Under the pieces are notes generated by a model. The model saw only the letters and a list, made by a program, of their open reading frames with translations. It was not told the origin of the DNA and searched no databases. From Planctomicrobium piriforme (GTDB lineage: Bacteria > Planctomycetota > Planctomycetia > Planctomycetales > Planctomycetaceae): DNA of 34,117 nt. This document shows positions 21,197-30,028 of the stretch, piece by piece (position 1 is the first letter of the stretch; each line of letters opens with the position of its first letter). The stretch spans positions 1 to 34,117 of the forward strand of contig CAMATH010000094.1 of the NCBI GenBank assembly GCA_945860955.1, read 5' to 3'. A program made the position numbers and the translations under genes.

Positions 21197-23107
21197 TCAC
21201 TCCTCCTTCGGACTTTCCTCCGGTGGAGGCAATCGCTTCAGAATCCGTTCTCTCACCACGCGGTACTTCGCGGCGTCCTCCGCCAGCCCGGCGCGCTGGC
21301 TCGCATTTTCCAGCCATTGATAGGCGGTGATCTGAGTCGGATCCCGTTCCAGCGCCAGTCGCGCCGCTGCCAACGCACCGTCAAAGTCTTCCACCTGTTC
21401 CCGCAACTGGGCCCGCAACCCTTGCGCGTCGGCGGGCCAGTCGTTCAGTTCGAGAAACGCGTCGAGGAACTCGAGTGACCGCTTGTACTGTCCGAAGCGG
21501 TGAAACGTCTGCGCCATCGCCAGCAGCGCGACTTCATTCTCGGCATCGTGACTGAGAACTTCCCGCCACAGCGGCACCGCATCGAGCGGCCGCCCGAGTA
21601 CCTGGTAGCAGCGGGCGATCGCCAGCGCCGCCGCCGCGTCCCCCGGGTTCGCCGCCGCGATTGGCTCAAGTAACGTGATCGCCCGGGCGGCGAGTTCCTC
21701 ATCGCGCTGCGATTCCGCTGTCCGCGACCCGAGGATCCCCCGCGCCCGCTGCAGGTCGACCGCCGGCAGCGCCCCTCCATCGACAAACAACTCCAACTGC
21801 CGACGCCCACCCCGGGGAGGGATCGCCTCCGGCGTACGCGAGATCGAGTGGCTGGTACGTGAAATATGGGGCTGCGCGACTCCGTCAATCGTCGGCATAT
21901 GACAGGCGACGCACGAATCGTTCTTCGCGAGCCGCTGGTCCTCCGAAAGGACACACCCCTTGTCCGCGTGGCACGTCTGGCACTTCGCCCGATAGAACGC
22001 GTCGCGTTCCGTCGGGGCGGGGGAACCATGCGCGTCGTGACAGGTGATGCAGCCGAGTTTTCCTTCGCTCAACCGGTAGCACCGGCTCGCGCGCATCTGT
22101 TCGACTTGGCTGGGGCTCCGCGGAGTGCCGTCCGAATACGAGGGTGACGGGTCCAGGTAGGTCGTACGAATCTCTGACAGGGTCATCCCCGGACGAAAAT
22201 CAAAATCGGTTCGACCGTGCCGCAAGACTTCTTCCGCGCCCGACAGATGGCACTGATTGCAAACCGCCTCGCGACGTTCGGTGTCAAGATGTTTCGGATT
22301 GACGATTGGGTCATTCGTCGCCGCCTTGTCCTTCTGTCGCAGCGCGATGTGCTGCTCTCCCGGCCCGTGGCACCGTTCGCATCCGATGCTCGCTTCGATG
22401 AACGGCGGATCGCCGAACCGGTCGAATTGTTTGCTCGCCGCGTTCACCTGACCGACGTGGCACGACAGACAGCGGGCTGTCACCCGCCGTTCAAATCGAT
22501 TCCCCGACTCCGGACGGAATCCCGGCGTCAGTTCCCAGTGATTTCCTTCGGTGCTCCAGGAGAGGGGAGACAGAAACAGCGACCCGTCGTGGAGAAACGC
22601 GTACGACTTCCCTTTGCTTCCCGAACCGATCGCGAACTGCACCGGAACCCGCTGATTGTAAATCGGCTCACTCGCGTTATCGAACAGCGCTTCGCAGTGA
22701 AACGTCGTGCCGTCCTGGTGTTCCACGCCGTACCAGCGTTCCCCCTGGGTGAAACTTGCGGCGACCGCCGGATCGAGGCTGGAACCGAACGACTTCGCCT
22801 TGCCGGTCGCCTGATATTTGTCGTAGATCTCGGTATGGCACTCCCGGCAGGCGGCGCTGCCAACGAAACCACGCGACGGGGCGGCGGGATTCTTCAGCTC
22901 CCAGCTTTTGACGATGTCTTCATATTCCGGCCCTTTCACGGGCAACAGATTCTTCTGGGGGTCAACCAGTTCCTCCGCGATCAACGGTTCCGGCTGATTC
23001 GTCCGCAAGAAGAGAAAACCTCCCACCGCGATGGCCAGGGGAATCAAGGCCAGCAGCAGCGTCACCAGAGGGGGGCGTTGTTGGGGAGCTGGAGTGGAGG
23101 ACGTCAT
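21197..23107 (-). CDS. Heptaheme cytochrome c with TPR tail (second of a tandem pair)
   Basis: A 636-residue membrane-anchored multiheme cytochrome. An N-terminal helix (LVTLLLALIPLAIAVGGFLF, about 15-34) anchors it; the rest is periplasmic. Seven CxxCH heme motifs start at about residues 87, 213, 243, 283, 353, 376 and 399 (CRECH, CLSCH, CERCH, CNQCH, CITCH, CQTCH, CVACH). The fold resembles cytochrome c554/multiheme c families. From about residue 470 tetratricopeptide repeats follow (AAAALAIARCYQVLGRPLDA, NEVALLAMAQTFHRFGQYKR), which usually bind partner proteins. The ATG at 23107 is 95 bases after the paralogue's stop, so the two are probably co-transcribed. Electron donor and acceptor are unknown. 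Confidence 0.92.
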   Translation of the reverse strand: MTSSTPAPQQRPPLVTLLLALIPLAIAVGGFLFLRTNQPEPLIAEELVDPQKNLLPVKGPEYEDIVKSWELKNPAAPSRGFVGSAACRECHTEIYDKYQATGKAKSFGSSLDPAVAASFTQGERWYGVEHQDGTTFHCEALFDNASEPIYNQRVPVQFAIGSGSKGKSYAFLHDGSLFLSPLSWSTEGNHWELTPGFRPESGNRFERRVTARCLSCHVGQVNAASKQFDRFGDPPFIEASIGCERCHGPGEQHIALRQKDKAATNDPIVNPKHLDTERREAVCNQCHLSGAEEVLRHGRTDFDFRPGMTLSEIRTTYLDPSPSYSDGTPRSPSQVEQMRASRCYRLSEGKLGCITCHDAHGSPAPTERDAFYRAKCQTCHADKGCVLSEDQRLAKNDSCVACHMPTIDGVAQPHISRTSHSISRTPEAIPPRGGRRQLELFVDGGALPAVDLQRARGILGSRTAESQRDEELAARAITLLEPIAAANPGDAAAALAIARCYQVLGRPLDAVPLWREVLSHDAENEVALLAMAQTFHRFGQYKRSLEFLDAFLELNDWPADAQGLRAQLREQVEDFDGALAAARLALERDPTQITAYQWLENASQRAGLAEDAAKYRVVRERILKRLPPPEESPKEE

Positions 23108-23202: not shown

Positions 23203-25089
23203 TCATTCAGCGGCCGTCCGCTTTTCGTTTCGCTTCTGAATCTTACGGTATCGCTCGGCTTCAATGGGACGGCCATCCTGTTCGCAAATGAACGCCAGCC
23301 ATTCCCATCCCGCCGCCATGGAAGGGTTCAACTCGGTTACACGCTTGGCCGCCTCGATCGCATCTTCCGTTTTGCCGTTCGCCAACAGTACCCGCGACCG
23401 CTGCGCCTGGTATTCCGTCCGCCAGGGATTCACCTGCGTCAGGCGATTGAAATAGGGCAGCGCCTCGGCGTGGCGGCCTGTCGACGAATAGGCGAGTCCA
23501 ATCGAATACAGCAACCCTTCACTTTTGGTGTTGGCGAACAGGGCTCTCTGCCAGGTGTCGACCGCCCGATCAGGATCTCCCGAGATCGCCAGTGAGATCC
23601 CGAACTTGTCAGCGACCGCGCTGTCAGTCGGATCGCGTTTCGAGATCGGTTCCAGCAGCGAAACAGCACGCGCCGCCCGTTCCGCATTCTGGCTGTGCTC
23701 CGCGCGCGTCGCCTCGACAATTCCCAGCGCCCGATTCAAATCAAACGCGTCGAGCGGAACTTCCTCCAGGTCAAAAATGCGAGTGACCGGTTCTCGCGGC
23801 GTCGCCACCGCGCTCAATTCTTCCGCTGTCGGTGACTGGGGACGACGCAGCACACGGTGGTCGGTCTGAGTCGTGTGCGGCACGTCGTTCGCGCCGAGCC
23901 GGGGCATGTGGCAGTCGATGCACGAACCGTTCGCGGGCGGGGCCTCGCGCTCCGCCAGCGGAAGCGAGCAGCCCCGGTCCGAATGGCAACTCTGGCAACG
24001 GGTGTTGTATTCGACCAGGCGTGTGTCACTGGTCGGAAGTCGATGCGAATCGTGACAGGTGATGCAGCCAAGCTTGCCTTCGCTTCCGATAAAACAACGA
24101 CTCGCCCGCATCTGCTGCACCTGGCTGACGGCGGTTGTCTCTCCCGCGTTCGAAACGCCCGTTCCCTCGACGAAGATCGACCAGACATCGCCAATTTCCA
24201 TTCCGGGCCGAAAATCAAAGTCGGTCCGGCCGTAGCGCAGAACCTCGTCGGTTCCAATCAGGTGGCACTGGTTGCAGACCCCTTCCCGCTTGGAGGGGGA
24301 GAGTTTTTTGGGATTGATGATGGGGTCATCCCCGGTGCGAGAATCCCCTCCGCGATGCCAGGAGACATGGTCCCGCCCGGGACCGTGGCACCGTTCGCAG
24401 GAAATCGCCGCCTCGCGAACTGCAGGATGCATGAACCGGTCATTTTCGCCCGGTTCGTGGTTCACGCGCCCCGCATGGCAACCGAGACAGCGTCCGGTGA
24501 CGGGGCGTTCGAATCGGGGGTGATTCTGATCGGGATAGCTAGGAGAGAGATCCCAGCGATTCTGCTGCGAGTACCACGAGATGGGTGACATGAACAATAA
24601 CCCACCCCGATCAATAAAGTACGACCGACCCCGATGCCCCGAACCGACCGAGTACTGGACTTCCACCCGCTGGTCGAACAGTTCTCCCTGGGCGTCGGTG
24701 TACGATTCGTGATGGTAGACTCCATCGTCCGCGAGTTCGACGCGGTAGTCGCATCCCCCTTTTGAAAATCGGGTGGCGGTGGTGTAGTCTTCCAGGGCGG
24801 GGGCTTCCGAGACCAGCGCCGCCGAATTCGCCATCGTGTGCCCGTCGTACATGTTGGCGATATCTGAATGGCAAACACGGCAGGCGCGATTGCCAACGTA
24901 AGCTTCGCTCGGTGGAGCTGGCTTGGGAGGGGCCGGCTCCACGACCTGTTCTTTTGGCTCCTGGGGAGATATTTCCACTCGGTCCCGACGCAGCCACCAG
25001 ACCCCGCCCCCCACAACCGATGCCACGAACAGCCCCAGAAAAATGGGGGTCCATCGACTGGCGACACGGCTCCGGGAAGGTTGCGTCAT
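23203..25089 (-). CDS. Heptaheme cytochrome c with TPR tail (first of a tandem pair)
   Basis: A 628-residue paralogue of the next gene with the same order of parts. The membrane anchor is at about 14-32 (PIFLGLFVASVVGGGVWWL), then a Pro/Glu-rich linker, seven CxxCH motifs at about residues 70, 201, 231, 272, 342, 365 and 390 (CRVCH, CLGCH, CERCH, CNQCH, CITCH, CQSCH, CIDCH), and a TPR C-terminus (DSAVADKFGISLAISGDPDR, EGLLYSIGLAYSSTGRHAEA). A long heme-free stretch between hemes 1 and 2 contains YSVGSGHRGRSYFIDRGGLL, matched by FAIGSGSKGKSYAFLHDGSL in the paralogue. It is probably the first gene of the operon, 80 bases downstream of a promoter-like sequence. Likely role: periplasmic electron transfer in a TPR-scaffolded complex. 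Confidence 0.92.
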   Translation of the reverse strand: MTQPSRSRVASRWTPIFLGLFVASVVGGGVWWLRRDRVEISPQEPKEQVVEPAPPKPAPPSEAYVGNRACRVCHSDIANMYDGHTMANSAALVSEAPALEDYTTATRFSKGGCDYRVELADDGVYHHESYTDAQGELFDQRVEVQYSVGSGHRGRSYFIDRGGLLFMSPISWYSQQNRWDLSPSYPDQNHPRFERPVTGRCLGCHAGRVNHEPGENDRFMHPAVREAAISCERCHGPGRDHVSWHRGGDSRTGDDPIINPKKLSPSKREGVCNQCHLIGTDEVLRYGRTDFDFRPGMEIGDVWSIFVEGTGVSNAGETTAVSQVQQMRASRCFIGSEGKLGCITCHDSHRLPTSDTRLVEYNTRCQSCHSDRGCSLPLAEREAPPANGSCIDCHMPRLGANDVPHTTQTDHRVLRRPQSPTAEELSAVATPREPVTRIFDLEEVPLDAFDLNRALGIVEATRAEHSQNAERAARAVSLLEPISKRDPTDSAVADKFGISLAISGDPDRAVDTWQRALFANTKSEGLLYSIGLAYSSTGRHAEALPYFNRLTQVNPWRTEYQAQRSRVLLANGKTEDAIEAAKRVTELNPSMAAGWEWLAFICEQDGRPIEAERYRKIQKRNEKRTAAE

Positions 25090-27858: not shown

Positions 27859-28014
27859 ATGGGTGGACCAATCGTACGCACGGGAACAACTCCCGAATTC
27901 TGGGAGAACTACGACCGCGTGTTTGGCGCGAAGAATGCGCCGGCGAAGGCAGCGGCCAAGAAAGCCGCTCCCAAAAAGTCGGCACCCAAGAAAGCCGCCA
28001 AGAAGAAGAAATAG
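27859..28014 (+). CDS. Small basic protein with Lys/Ala-rich tail
   Basis: A 51-residue protein. The first half, MGGPIVRTGTTPEFWENYDR then VFGAKN, looks like a conserved short domain with two aromatic-centred segments; the second half is a low-complexity tail of Lys, Ala and Pro (AKAAAKKAAPKKSAPKKAAK) like histone H1 and other planctomycete basic tails. AAGGAGAAG lies about 6-14 bases before the ATG, a strong ribosome binding site. The repeated AAGAAAGCCGC-type codons make the tail prone to slippage. It probably binds nucleic acid or the ribosome; I recall similar planctomycete proteins of unknown function, not verified. Confidence 0.75.
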   Translation: MGGPIVRTGTTPEFWENYDRVFGAKNAPAKAAAKKAAPKKSAPKKAAKKKK

Positions 28015-28081
28015 TCCGCCGTCGATTCCCCACCCCCCCGCGTCGCTCGCGGCGTCCCTGGTTCGCCTTGGCGTGTTTCTG

Positions 28082-30028
28082 ATGCGAACACCTCGACGGG
28101 CCACGCTGATCACGGTGGTGGGTGTCGCACTGTTGCTGGCGGCCGACGCGTCGTGGCGCGCGACGATTCCCGGCGTCAACGAACCGCATTATCTGTCGAA
28201 GTCCAGGCATTTCTGGATCGACACTTGGTGCCAGCGCGACCTCTTCGCCGCGTCTACCAACGCGCATTGGTTTTTTTACGCCGCGGTCGGCTGGCTGGCC
28301 GCGGTGTTTTCTTTTCCCGTGGCGGCGTGGTTGGGGCGGATCGCGGGATGGTCGGTTTTGGCCTGGGGATGGAATCGGTTGGGAACCGGTTTGATTCCGC
28401 AGGTATTGGCGTCGACGGCTGCCCCGTGTACGCCTGTTGAAACGGGAACGCACAATGGCGGCTCGGCAGGAGCCTCGCCCTCCCGTGGCTTGGTTTCCAC
28501 TCAACGCTTGTCGGGTGAGGCAGAGGGGGGAACTTTCGGGGAACTCGGGTCGGGGGCTGCCCCTTGTTCGCCTGTCGAAACGGGAAAGCACAGTGGCGGC
28601 TCGGCAGGAGCCTCGCCCTCCCGTGGCGGGTTTCTCGACACCATCGTTCGCGGAATGCGATTCCAACTGCTTCCATTGAATTGGTCGATTCTCTTCGCCG
28701 CCATTCTTTGGATGGCGTTCGCGACTCCCAACGGACTTTCGGGAGAATGGGTGATCGGTGGAGTCGAATCGAAGGTATTCGCGTATGGCCTGTTGTTCGC
28801 CGGGCTGGGGAATCTGCTCCAAAATCGGCTACGGTGGGCGGGGCTCCAGTTGGGCCTTTCCGTCGCGTTCCATCCGCTGGTCGGCGGATGGGGAGTGGTG
28901 GCACTCGCCCTGTCGTTGGGCTGTGACCGAGTGCGACTGGCGATCTGTCGCTGGCGTGGACTCTCTTCGAATCGATCCGCAAACGCCCTCCAACTCGAAA
29001 CGGTCGACACGTCGGCGGGTCAACAGAAGCACTCGGGATTATTCGCGATTCTCCTGCTGATGGTCGCATCGATGCCGGGGATGATTCCCGCCTTGACGAT
29101 GCTCGCCAATGTCCCCTCGCGCGAAATCGCGGAACAAGGGACTCGAATTCAGGTACTCGATCGGCTGCCGCATCATTTGCTGCCAGCACACTTTCGACCG
29201 CAAGACGTACAGTGGTCCGGCACGTTACTGGGGGTCTTCCTGCTGGGGTGTTGGCTGGGTCCACGAACGACTTCGTGGCGACTGTGGCGTGGTGGGATTC
29301 TCGGGTGCGCCGGCATCGCGCTCGCGGGTCTGCTGGCTGATCTGACTCCATGGCGCATTTCCTTGTTGAAGTTTTACCCGTTTCGCCTGATTGACGGTTT
29401 GCTCCCCTGCGCGGCGGCGTGGGAGCTGGTCGCGCTTTGGCCCGCCGTGCGCCGAAAGCTCGAACGGTGGATTCTGTTATTGACTCACTGGAGCCAACGC
29501 TGGCCGACGCTTAGTAGGCCGCTCCAAAAGTTTCCCCAGCATATGACGTCGGCAATCGGAATCGGCTGCCTCGGAGTCGCGCTGGCGGTGCCGTATCGCC
29601 TGCCGGCGTTGGATCGCGTGCAGCCACGCTGGAAAGACGAGAATCGCGCCGCTTGGCGGGAGGTGTGCGAATGGGTCCGTACCGAGACCGAACCCGACGC
29701 GTTGTTTCTCACCCCCAAGTTCTCTTTTGGGTTCAAGTGGTTGGGGGAGCGGGCCGAGTACGCCGTCTGGAAAGACTGCCCGCAAGACGCCGCCAGTCTG
29801 GTGGAATGGAAACGTCGGCTGGATTACGTTAGCGCCTGGCGACGCAAGCACGTCGCGAAGGGTTTTGGGGAACAGGCGGTCGCCGAGTTCTCCAGCCAGA
29901 CCGGTGTCGACTATGTCGTCGCCTGGAACAAGGATCCGTTCAAAATTGAACCGATCTTTCGCAATCCTTCATTCTCCGTCTATCGAATTCGAGTGCGGGA
30001 TGGTAAACCAGAGGAGACAGCCCCCTAG
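28082..30028 (+). CDS. Polytopic membrane protein of unknown function with repeat insertions
   Basis: A 648-residue protein with about ten hydrophobic segments (for example ATLITVVGVALLLAADASW, WLAAVFSFPVAAWLGRIAGW, GLFAILLLMVASMPGMIPAL) and a soluble C-terminal part (EVCEWVRTETEPDALFLTPK, RLDYVSAWRRKHVAKGF, VDYVVAWNKDPFKIEP) like that of membrane proteins with an extracytoplasmic C-terminal domain. I recall a DUF6798-like family, unverified. The ATG at 28082 is preferred; a GTG at 28073 is possible and no good ribosome binding site is visible. Between the helices at about residues 110-185 lie two in-frame copies of a 73-bp repeat, giving a Gly/Ser/Pro-rich loop (GGSAGASPSRG twice). It is followed 45 bases later by the acyl-CoA synthetase fusion. 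Confidence 0.78.
   Translation: MRTPRRATLITVVGVALLLAADASWRATIPGVNEPHYLSKSRHFWIDTWCQRDLFAASTNAHWFFYAAVGWLAAVFSFPVAAWLGRIAGWSVLAWGWNRLGTGLIPQVLASTAAPCTPVETGTHNGGSAGASPSRGLVSTQRLSGEAEGGTFGELGSGAAPCSPVETGKHSGGSAGASPSRGGFLDTIVRGMRFQLLPLNWSILFAAILWMAFATPNGLSGEWVIGGVESKVFAYGLLFAGLGNLLQNRLRWAGLQLGLSVAFHPLVGGWGVVALALSLGCDRVRLAICRWRGLSSNRSANALQLETVDTSAGQQKHSGLFAILLLMVASMPGMIPALTMLANVPSREIAEQGTRIQVLDRLPHHLLPAHFRPQDVQWSGTLLGVFLLGCWLGPRTTSWRLWRGGILGCAGIALAGLLADLTPWRISLLKFYPFRLIDGLLPCAAAWELVALWPAVRRKLERWILLLTHWSQRWPTLSRPLQKFPQHMTSAIGIGCLGVALAVPYRLPALDRVQPRWKDENRAAWREVCEWVRTETEPDALFLTPKFSFGFKWLGERAEYAVWKDCPQDAASLVEWKRRLDYVSAWRRKHVAKGFGEQAVAEFSSQTGVDYVVAWNKDPFKIEPIFRNPSFSVYRIRVRDGKPEETAP
28417..28489 (+). 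repeat. 73-bp dispersed-type repeat, copy 1, inside a coding region
   Basis: Starts GGCTGCCCCGTGTACGCCTG and ends with GGCTCGGCAGGAGCCTCGCC plus CTCCCGTGGC. It matches copy 2 at 68 of 73 positions. In this frame it encodes AAPCTPVETGTHNGGSAGAS then PSRG. The core is one I associate with dispersed planctomycete repeats. Confidence 0.85.
28555..28627 (+). repeat. 73-bp dispersed-type repeat, copy 2, inside a coding region
   Basis: Starts GGCTGCCCCTTGTTCGCCTG and has the same last 34 bases as copy 1. The copies are 138 bases apart (46 codons), so both are read in the same frame; here the product is AAPCSPVETGKHSGGSAGAS then PSRG. Confidence 0.85.

Follow-up and report, generated by a model that had tools for sequence, protein, structure and literature searches.

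A polytopic membrane protein gene in the window (the whole 34,117-nt stretch of DNA analyzed) carries two closely similar segments in frame, which raises the question of whether these belong to the ancestral protein or are copies of a repeat that entered the gene. The open frame of this host gene spans 27863-30028 on the plus strand, probably starts at the ATG at 28082, and encodes a protein that matches DUF6798 (PF20604) over residues 533-591 when numbered from 28052. By use of find_repeats on the window, element copy 1 (28402-28489) was aligned with element copy 2 (28540-28627), both on the plus strand and 88 nt in length, at 88% identity and 138 nt from start to start. Within these copies, a recount of the 73-nt stretch 28417-28489 against 28555-28627 revealed 5 differences (68 of 73 positions identical), and the host frame was found to stay open across both copies with the translation PVETG.H.GGSAGASPSRG; the sequence-only reading, which had described two 73-nt copies 138 nt apart that keep the reading frame, was right on both counts. 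An identity profile at the 138-nt offset restricted the likeness to about 28408-28490, the conserved body of copy 1, while the remaining period was near background. Thus, simple tandem duplication of one homogeneous 138-nt unit does not account for the pair. Beyond its 3' end, copy 2 seems to continue with weak conservation to about 28660. Each copy includes a REP-like core of stem type GGC-AGGA-GCC on the plus strand, composed of a palindrome (28460-28479 in copy 1, 28598-28617 in copy 2) and a CTCCC tail, such that the cores occupy 28460-28484 and 28598-28622. The 20-nt core matched the window twice at up to 3 mismatches and had no match in 100 dinucleotide shuffles of it. At gathering thresholds, no known Rfam RNA family was matched in the window.

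Comparison to orthologues was used to distinguish old protein sequence from insertion. Of 150 genomes from the family, 143 had a relative of the host protein, and the 29 best matches among these were aligned. Segment W118-W209 was missing, with no residue in its place, from all 28 relatives that aligned on both sides; the 29th (L087) had no left-side alignment and was uninformative, with one stray residue put into the gap by the aligner. The gap corresponds to 28403-28678 on the plus strand and measures 92 codons or 276 nt, exactly twice 138 nt, with ends that shift by a few codons with the aligner. By hydropathy, the segment falls between two hydrophobic stretches of the host protein. Since none of the 28 informative orthologues carries it, the segment is an insertion and not old protein sequence, as had been proposed from the sequence alone. 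The alternative, a long-standing part of the protein or a duplication within the gene, is refuted by this alignment and has next to no probability: the open frame and nothing else speaks for it, and 138 further places of the family are spread across the genome. The orthologue from G079, a genome of the same genus, was uninformative on the insertion because only the 3' end of its gene was assembled.

The repeat was found to be dispersed in the 8.40-Mb genome. A 29-nt extended core was detected at 92 places at up to 3 mismatches (47 forward and 45 reverse), 38 of them without mismatch, and a sister core of type ACG-AGGA-CGT was detected at 46 places at the same threshold; the reversed-pattern controls gave 0 for both. 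Thus, the core is not confined to the host gene, and its earlier description as a dispersed repeat proved correct. When 96 copies of this genome (up to 5 mismatches) were taken with their flanks, conservation was high between about -50 and +30 relative to the core and lower as far as about -95 and +55, and in a subset of copies it extended to about -300 and included the sister core in inverted orientation. In this lineage the element comprises 80-138 nt around the palindrome and occurs as singles, head-to-tail repeats and head-to-head dimers. Head-to-tail repeats 138 nt apart were present at several places in the genome; the element length of 138 nt is based on this copy spacing and on two indels, and strong conservation is limited to about 80 nt.

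The core is a 20-nt imperfect palindrome, GGC TC XYZ RGGA Z'Y'X' TC GCC, followed by CTCCCG, and in this it corresponds to the hairpin-capable imperfect palindrome of 20-40 nt that is typical of REPs. Neither GTAG nor CGTC, the terminal tags of REPs, was detected beside the stem in the printed copies, which keep the CTCCC tail. For analysis of the stem, the middle 10 nt of the core were left free and complementarity of the two triplets was scored against re-dealt 3' triplets. By this approach, fully complementary stems were found in 104 of 112 distinct cores from loci of this genome (mean of 41 and maximum of 55 in 2000 shuffles) and in 211 of 223 cores from loci of other genomes (shuffle mean 139, maximum 154), loci that were mostly retrieved with patterns favoring GGC or AGC stems. 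When both triplets were left free in seven whole genomes, which were listed completely and mostly selected on the basis of a GGC or AGC core, 85 of 96 cores had complementary stems (shuffle mean 44, maximum 57); G441, also a complete listing with 54 matches, stands outside this count. Related copies are not independent, and these stem counts are not probabilities. The stem types included GGC/GCC, AGC/GCT, ACG/CGT, GCC/GGC, ACC/GGT, ATC/GAT and CGC/GCG. It is difficult to account for several stem types that differ in both halves unless stem pairing is constrained, and coding constraint alone is insufficient since the ACG/CGT type alters two amino acids in the coding frame. Taken together, the sequences indicate that the core hairpin is constrained, its stem halves changing together.

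Head-to-head dimers, which are common among REPs, were common here as well. In this genome, the 69 pairs of neighboring cores separated by no more than 400 nt comprised 40 divergent (-+), 14 convergent and 15 same-direction pairs; 25 of the 40 divergent pairs were 223-226 nt apart, giving head-to-head dimers of about 225-nt spacing with interiors of about 200 nt. No divergent (-+) pair within 150 nt was found in this genome, unlike other genomes. Core groups in 117 loci among the matches listed, mostly from other Planctomycetota, were divergent (-+) in 84 of 174 cases, convergent in 6, tandem in 22 and single in 62, and 67 of the 84 divergent pairs of these other genomes had REPIN-like loops of 10-32 nt. 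The two copies in the window point in the same direction, unlike the two inverted REPs with a short loop that make up REPINs. One inverted pair from another genome folds with a z score of -12, and for a G079 dimer (L249) none of 200 shuffles folds as well, whether as DNA or as RNA (z about -3.4); the single-copy element, both window copies included, folds no better than shuffles (z from -0.8 to +0.8).

Head-to-head dimers of constant length with the core at both ends would also be expected of a MITE of a DDE transposon that has the core as its terminal inverted repeat. The MITEs ERIC, NEMIS and RUP, as outlined in PMC2229807, share with the element a non-autonomous nature, an inverted architecture, some in-frame fusions and a size of 100-300 nt. 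However, 32 of the 40 divergent pairs join two different stem types, and the inner stem of the core covaries although it would be unneeded for recognition of double-stranded ends. Moreover, no target-site duplication was established, and neither a parental IS nor a core-bounded transposase was noticed, the latter without a systematic search. A MITE origin is thus quite improbable.

The location of copies relative to genes was examined by scoring the flanks of 63 clusters with a codon model trained on long ORFs. By this score, nine clusters were in-frame in genes (L003, L015, L027, which is the window gene, L044, L056, L059, L069, L070 and L073), compared to 1304 of 2882 random points in the window and 793 of 1580 in the other loci, or 45-50%. 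The count of 9 of 63 is a lower bound and the true in-gene share is above 14%, since the test calls only 45-50% of random points in-gene and since the longer upstream repeat of some copies weakens the left-flank score. Copies in genes were under-represented about threefold compared to random points; the repeat is thus predominantly extragenic, as are REPs, and its in-gene copies look like tolerated survivors. The suggestion that this is a peptide-tolerant mobile unit therefore stood in part: the frame is kept in the host gene, but 'peptide-tolerant' was an overstatement in light of the low in-gene share, and mobility, never observed as such, is something we infer from the scattered copies, their patchy occurrence and the length differences that separate relatives.

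Under-representation in genes and a covarying hairpin might instead reflect a selected regulatory hairpin, that is, a terminator or mRNA-stability element and not selfish DNA, and many clusters do have a coding sequence that starts close by on their 3' side. This explanation is very improbable, as the repeat is missing from two genomes of the genus and copies are also found inside genes.

Seven in-gene loci were judged solid based on Pfam matches, open frames and the codon model. These are the window gene with its DUF6798 membrane protein; an Lhr-type helicase (L059), in which the insertion lies between the DEAD and Helicase_C matches; two M10/PKD proteins (L070 and L073) with Pfam matches on both sides; L003, with a PMT_2 match on one side; L015, by the codon model alone without a Pfam match; and L017, which has a PMT_2 match on one side and four copies 189 nt apart in an open frame and is outside the nine because its left flank failed the codon test. 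Loci L044 and L056, where the copies are located before the first domain match, and L069, which has no domain match and a weak score, were not considered solid. The GGSAGASPS frame is used in 5 of the 7 solid loci, which is suggestive of a frame preference for a sample of seven loci only. The linker of the Lhr-type helicase was variable among 15 aligned relatives. At the same site, one of these relatives, the Lhr-type helicase of G002 (L321), has a REGEAPSEP stretch of its own, which suggests repeated use of one permissive site.

The covarying hairpin, the inverted pairs and the under-representation in genes are hallmarks of REPs and REPINs, and would be accounted for by a bona fide REP/REPIN family that is moved in trans by the genome's own Y1/HUH REP-associated transposase. 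Pfam PF01797 (Y1_Tnp) had 13 matches in this genome, several of which carry a motif that we take to be RAYT-like. However, no recognizable core was found near the 13 matches in flanks that reached 1.5 kb at most and were shorter at contig ends, although a core look-alike with 5 mismatches lies about 0.9 kb from the Y1_Tnp match of L035. Among core-bearing genomes elsewhere, the core was beside 1 of 30 Y1_Tnp loci examined (L299, a weak match), where the flank scans listed core matches of up to 7 mismatches and the 30 loci are part of the Y1_Tnp matches present. No Y1_Tnp match was found in 3 of 22 core-bearing genomes, some of which may be incomplete as MAGs. Short inverted sequences other than the core, AAAGGTGTCAGGAACC or AAAAGGGGTCAG, were found to bound the RAYT-like genes of L032 and L033 on both sides and those of L035 and L036 on the side seen, and the Y1 gene of L031 is located amid a different inverted repeat. 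With the core beside 0 of 13 and 1 of 30 Y1_Tnp loci, linkage to a RAYT was absent from what was examined, and the REP-associated transposase gene anticipated by the sequence-only reading received no support from the PF01797 search of this genome and 22 others or from the core scans near the 13 and 30 loci. Since the tag differs and RAYT linkage was not found in the loci examined, the repeat does not qualify as a member of the GTAG/CGTC REPs, and we regard mobilization by the genome's own Y1/HUH transposase as rather unlikely.

Several features of these transposase loci were observed in addition. The RAYT-like genes of L032 (on contig C13) and L035 (C231) are duplicates with 97% identity over 642 nt, and those of L033 (C16) and L036 (C81) are duplicates with 91% identity over 373 nt and a stop in L036. 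In L031 (C69, about 40900-43267), an IS200-like Y1 transposase gene lies among four copies of an inverted repeat of about 130 nt (GGGGTC..GACCCC, GCATCCC..GGGATGC) that resembles stretches in L005 and in the G079 locus L239.

Occurrence of the repeat in other genomes was patchy. Of 294 genomes sampled across the phylum, 5 had the exact core pattern, with this genome counted among them. Within the genus, G079 had 36 core places at up to 2 mismatches, and G046 and G099 (83% complete) had 0 cores, free-stem search included. Named genome contigs included at least 117 stretches with the core, mostly of Planctomycetota among the matches listed, and among these matches the core was also found in MAGs titled Zixibacteria, Armatimonadetes, Chloroflexi, Deltaproteobacteria and Acidobacteria. 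A free-stem search had matches in 29 of 31 chosen genomes, 27 of which were chosen because the core was already shown there, and its controls were 0 in all. The matches numbered 682 in a Fuerstiella MAG, 176 and 22 in two Zixibacteria MAGs, 54 in a Chloroflexi MAG, 25 in an Acidobacteria MAG, 18 and 14 in two Armatimonadetes MAGs, 6 in a Deltaproteobacteria MAG and 55 in the isolate Aquisphaera insulae. These record titles and counts reject a restriction of the repeat to Planctomycetota and agree with the statement in the sequence-only reading of a core in planctomycetes and other phyla, with the caveat that most of the multi-phylum records are MAGs with the phylum taken from the title and binning unchecked. 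An HMM of the element from this genome gave 295 matches at E<=10 against those 117 loci, and among the 60 of these that were listed a near-full element was seen in L206 alone, partial leftward matches in a few (L129, L229 and L192 among them), and mainly the core in the others. Thus, the core is widespread and the element, as far as seen, nearly lineage-specific.

With regard to plasmid or phage carriage, the lineage-specific consensus had no match in a plasmid collection, and one inverted pair had no match in phage records. Viral contigs (L351-L377) included 27 stretches with a free-stem core, some of which may be host sequence or prophage edges, and close inverted core pairs were noted in four of these contigs (L355, L365, L366 and L377).

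Differences between close relatives bear on whether the family is still spreading. This genome is 138 nt longer than G079 at two loci, L049 (versus L241) and L048 (versus L255), in each case next to an existing copy; for this reason, recombination that adds or removes tandem copies, and not transposition, could have produced the two differences. In G079, 23 of 33 stretches matched a copy-bearing stretch of this genome (two pairs overlap), a proportion that is biased by selection of the stretches of this genome for their copies. Comparison of the two genomes yielded no empty site that was clean and had a target-site duplication. The most promising candidate, L249 in G079 compared to contig C22 of this genome, showed a large difference and a composite copy with an internal deletion, and was rejected as an empty site because repeat remnants were present on both sides in both genomes. 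A second candidate, the repeat cluster L253 (contig C1217 of G079), was rejected since its flanks correspond to separate contigs (C13 and C2) of this genome; this cluster joins those flanks and is possibly a repeat-mediated rearrangement or an assembly join at the repeat.

The matching stretches in G079 (selected with the bias described), the position of the 138-nt differences beside existing copies and the composite copy with its internal deletion are all consistent with a fossil family that spread long ago and now changes only by recombination, tandem slippage and decay; an ancient spread is suggested for CGTC repeats in PMC3733652. However, the absence of copies from two other genomes of the genus (one of them 83% complete) and the patchy spread in the phylum suggest gain in this lineage, and over a third of the places (38 of 92) match the 29-nt core without mismatch. 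We therefore consider a fossil family unlikely.

We favor as probable, though far from certain, an orphan, non-autonomous REP/REPIN-like hairpin element that spreads by a trans-acting enzyme and of which in-frame copies in protein loops are tolerated. Copies would spread via a trans-acting enzyme for which the single-stranded hairpin is the substrate, in the manner of REPINs and RAYTs, and which may be encoded elsewhere than beside the repeats. Insertions into genes would mostly be lost, and the few that keep the frame and fall in loops or linkers would persist as added Gly/Ser/Ala/Pro-rich peptides, functionless as far as shown. A broader proposal, which we put forward tentatively, is that a single orphan REP-like superfamily, with the frame GGCTC-(stem)-RGGA-(stem)-TCGCCCTCCC strictly kept and stems freely exchangeable, may cross bacterial phyla with a dedicated mobilizer other than the known Y1/RAYT enzymes and seed in-frame Gly/Ser/Ala/Pro linkers in planctomycete proteins.

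Among bacteria, Rickettsia offers the best-known in-frame selfish DNA, and a comparable planctomycete-like case, with a hairpin core common to several phyla and no visible transposase, makes testable what mobilizes orphan REPs and how often insertions add protein loops. By analogy, the element may work like a REP/REPIN and behave in genes like a Rickettsia palindromic element (RPE). Based on PMC3733652 (Di Nocera et al. 2013), likeness to REPs and REPINs includes an imperfect palindrome of 20 nt whose tail is unpaired, the presence of many copies, common head-to-head dimers, under-representation in genes with some copies inside, and occurrence in several phyla including Planctomycetes. By contrast to the GTAG or CGTC tags of REPs, the tail is CTCCCG here (CGGGAG on the other strand); the element also differs in that no linked RAYT was found for the core, that the core is unchanged outside the stem across records of several phyla, and that it is embedded in an element of 80-138 nt with 225-nt dimer spacing. 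The same source indicates that CGTC repeats, among which the R. conorii elements are counted, seem to be without a dedicated transposase. Likeness to RPEs, which according to PMC2229807 and PMC10969869 are 105-146 bp, lies in similar size, dispersal and in-frame presence in unrelated protein genes, and the window gene conforms to this pattern with an in-frame element of about 105-150 nt that 28 of 28 informative orthologues are without. Nearly half of RPEs are in ORFs by the account in PMC10969869, compared to at least 9 of 63 clusters here; sequence and phylum are unrelated, and the single-copy element folds no better than shuffles.

A literature text search for the core, its reverse-complement pieces and the encoded peptides found nothing related in a corpus that leaves out figure sequences and most subscription papers. 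On REPs, REPINs and dispersed repeats in Planctomycetes, the same literature yielded the REP survey (PMC3733652) and a HuH survey, along with papers of no relevance. For annotators, GGSAGASPSR- and REGEAPAEP-like stretches in proteins can be repeat-derived. Elsewhere in the window, a 42-nt stretch is present at 22028-22069 and 24043-24084 with 88% identity, in the neighboring minus-strand ORFs 21197-23107 and 23203-25089, which are perhaps paralogues.
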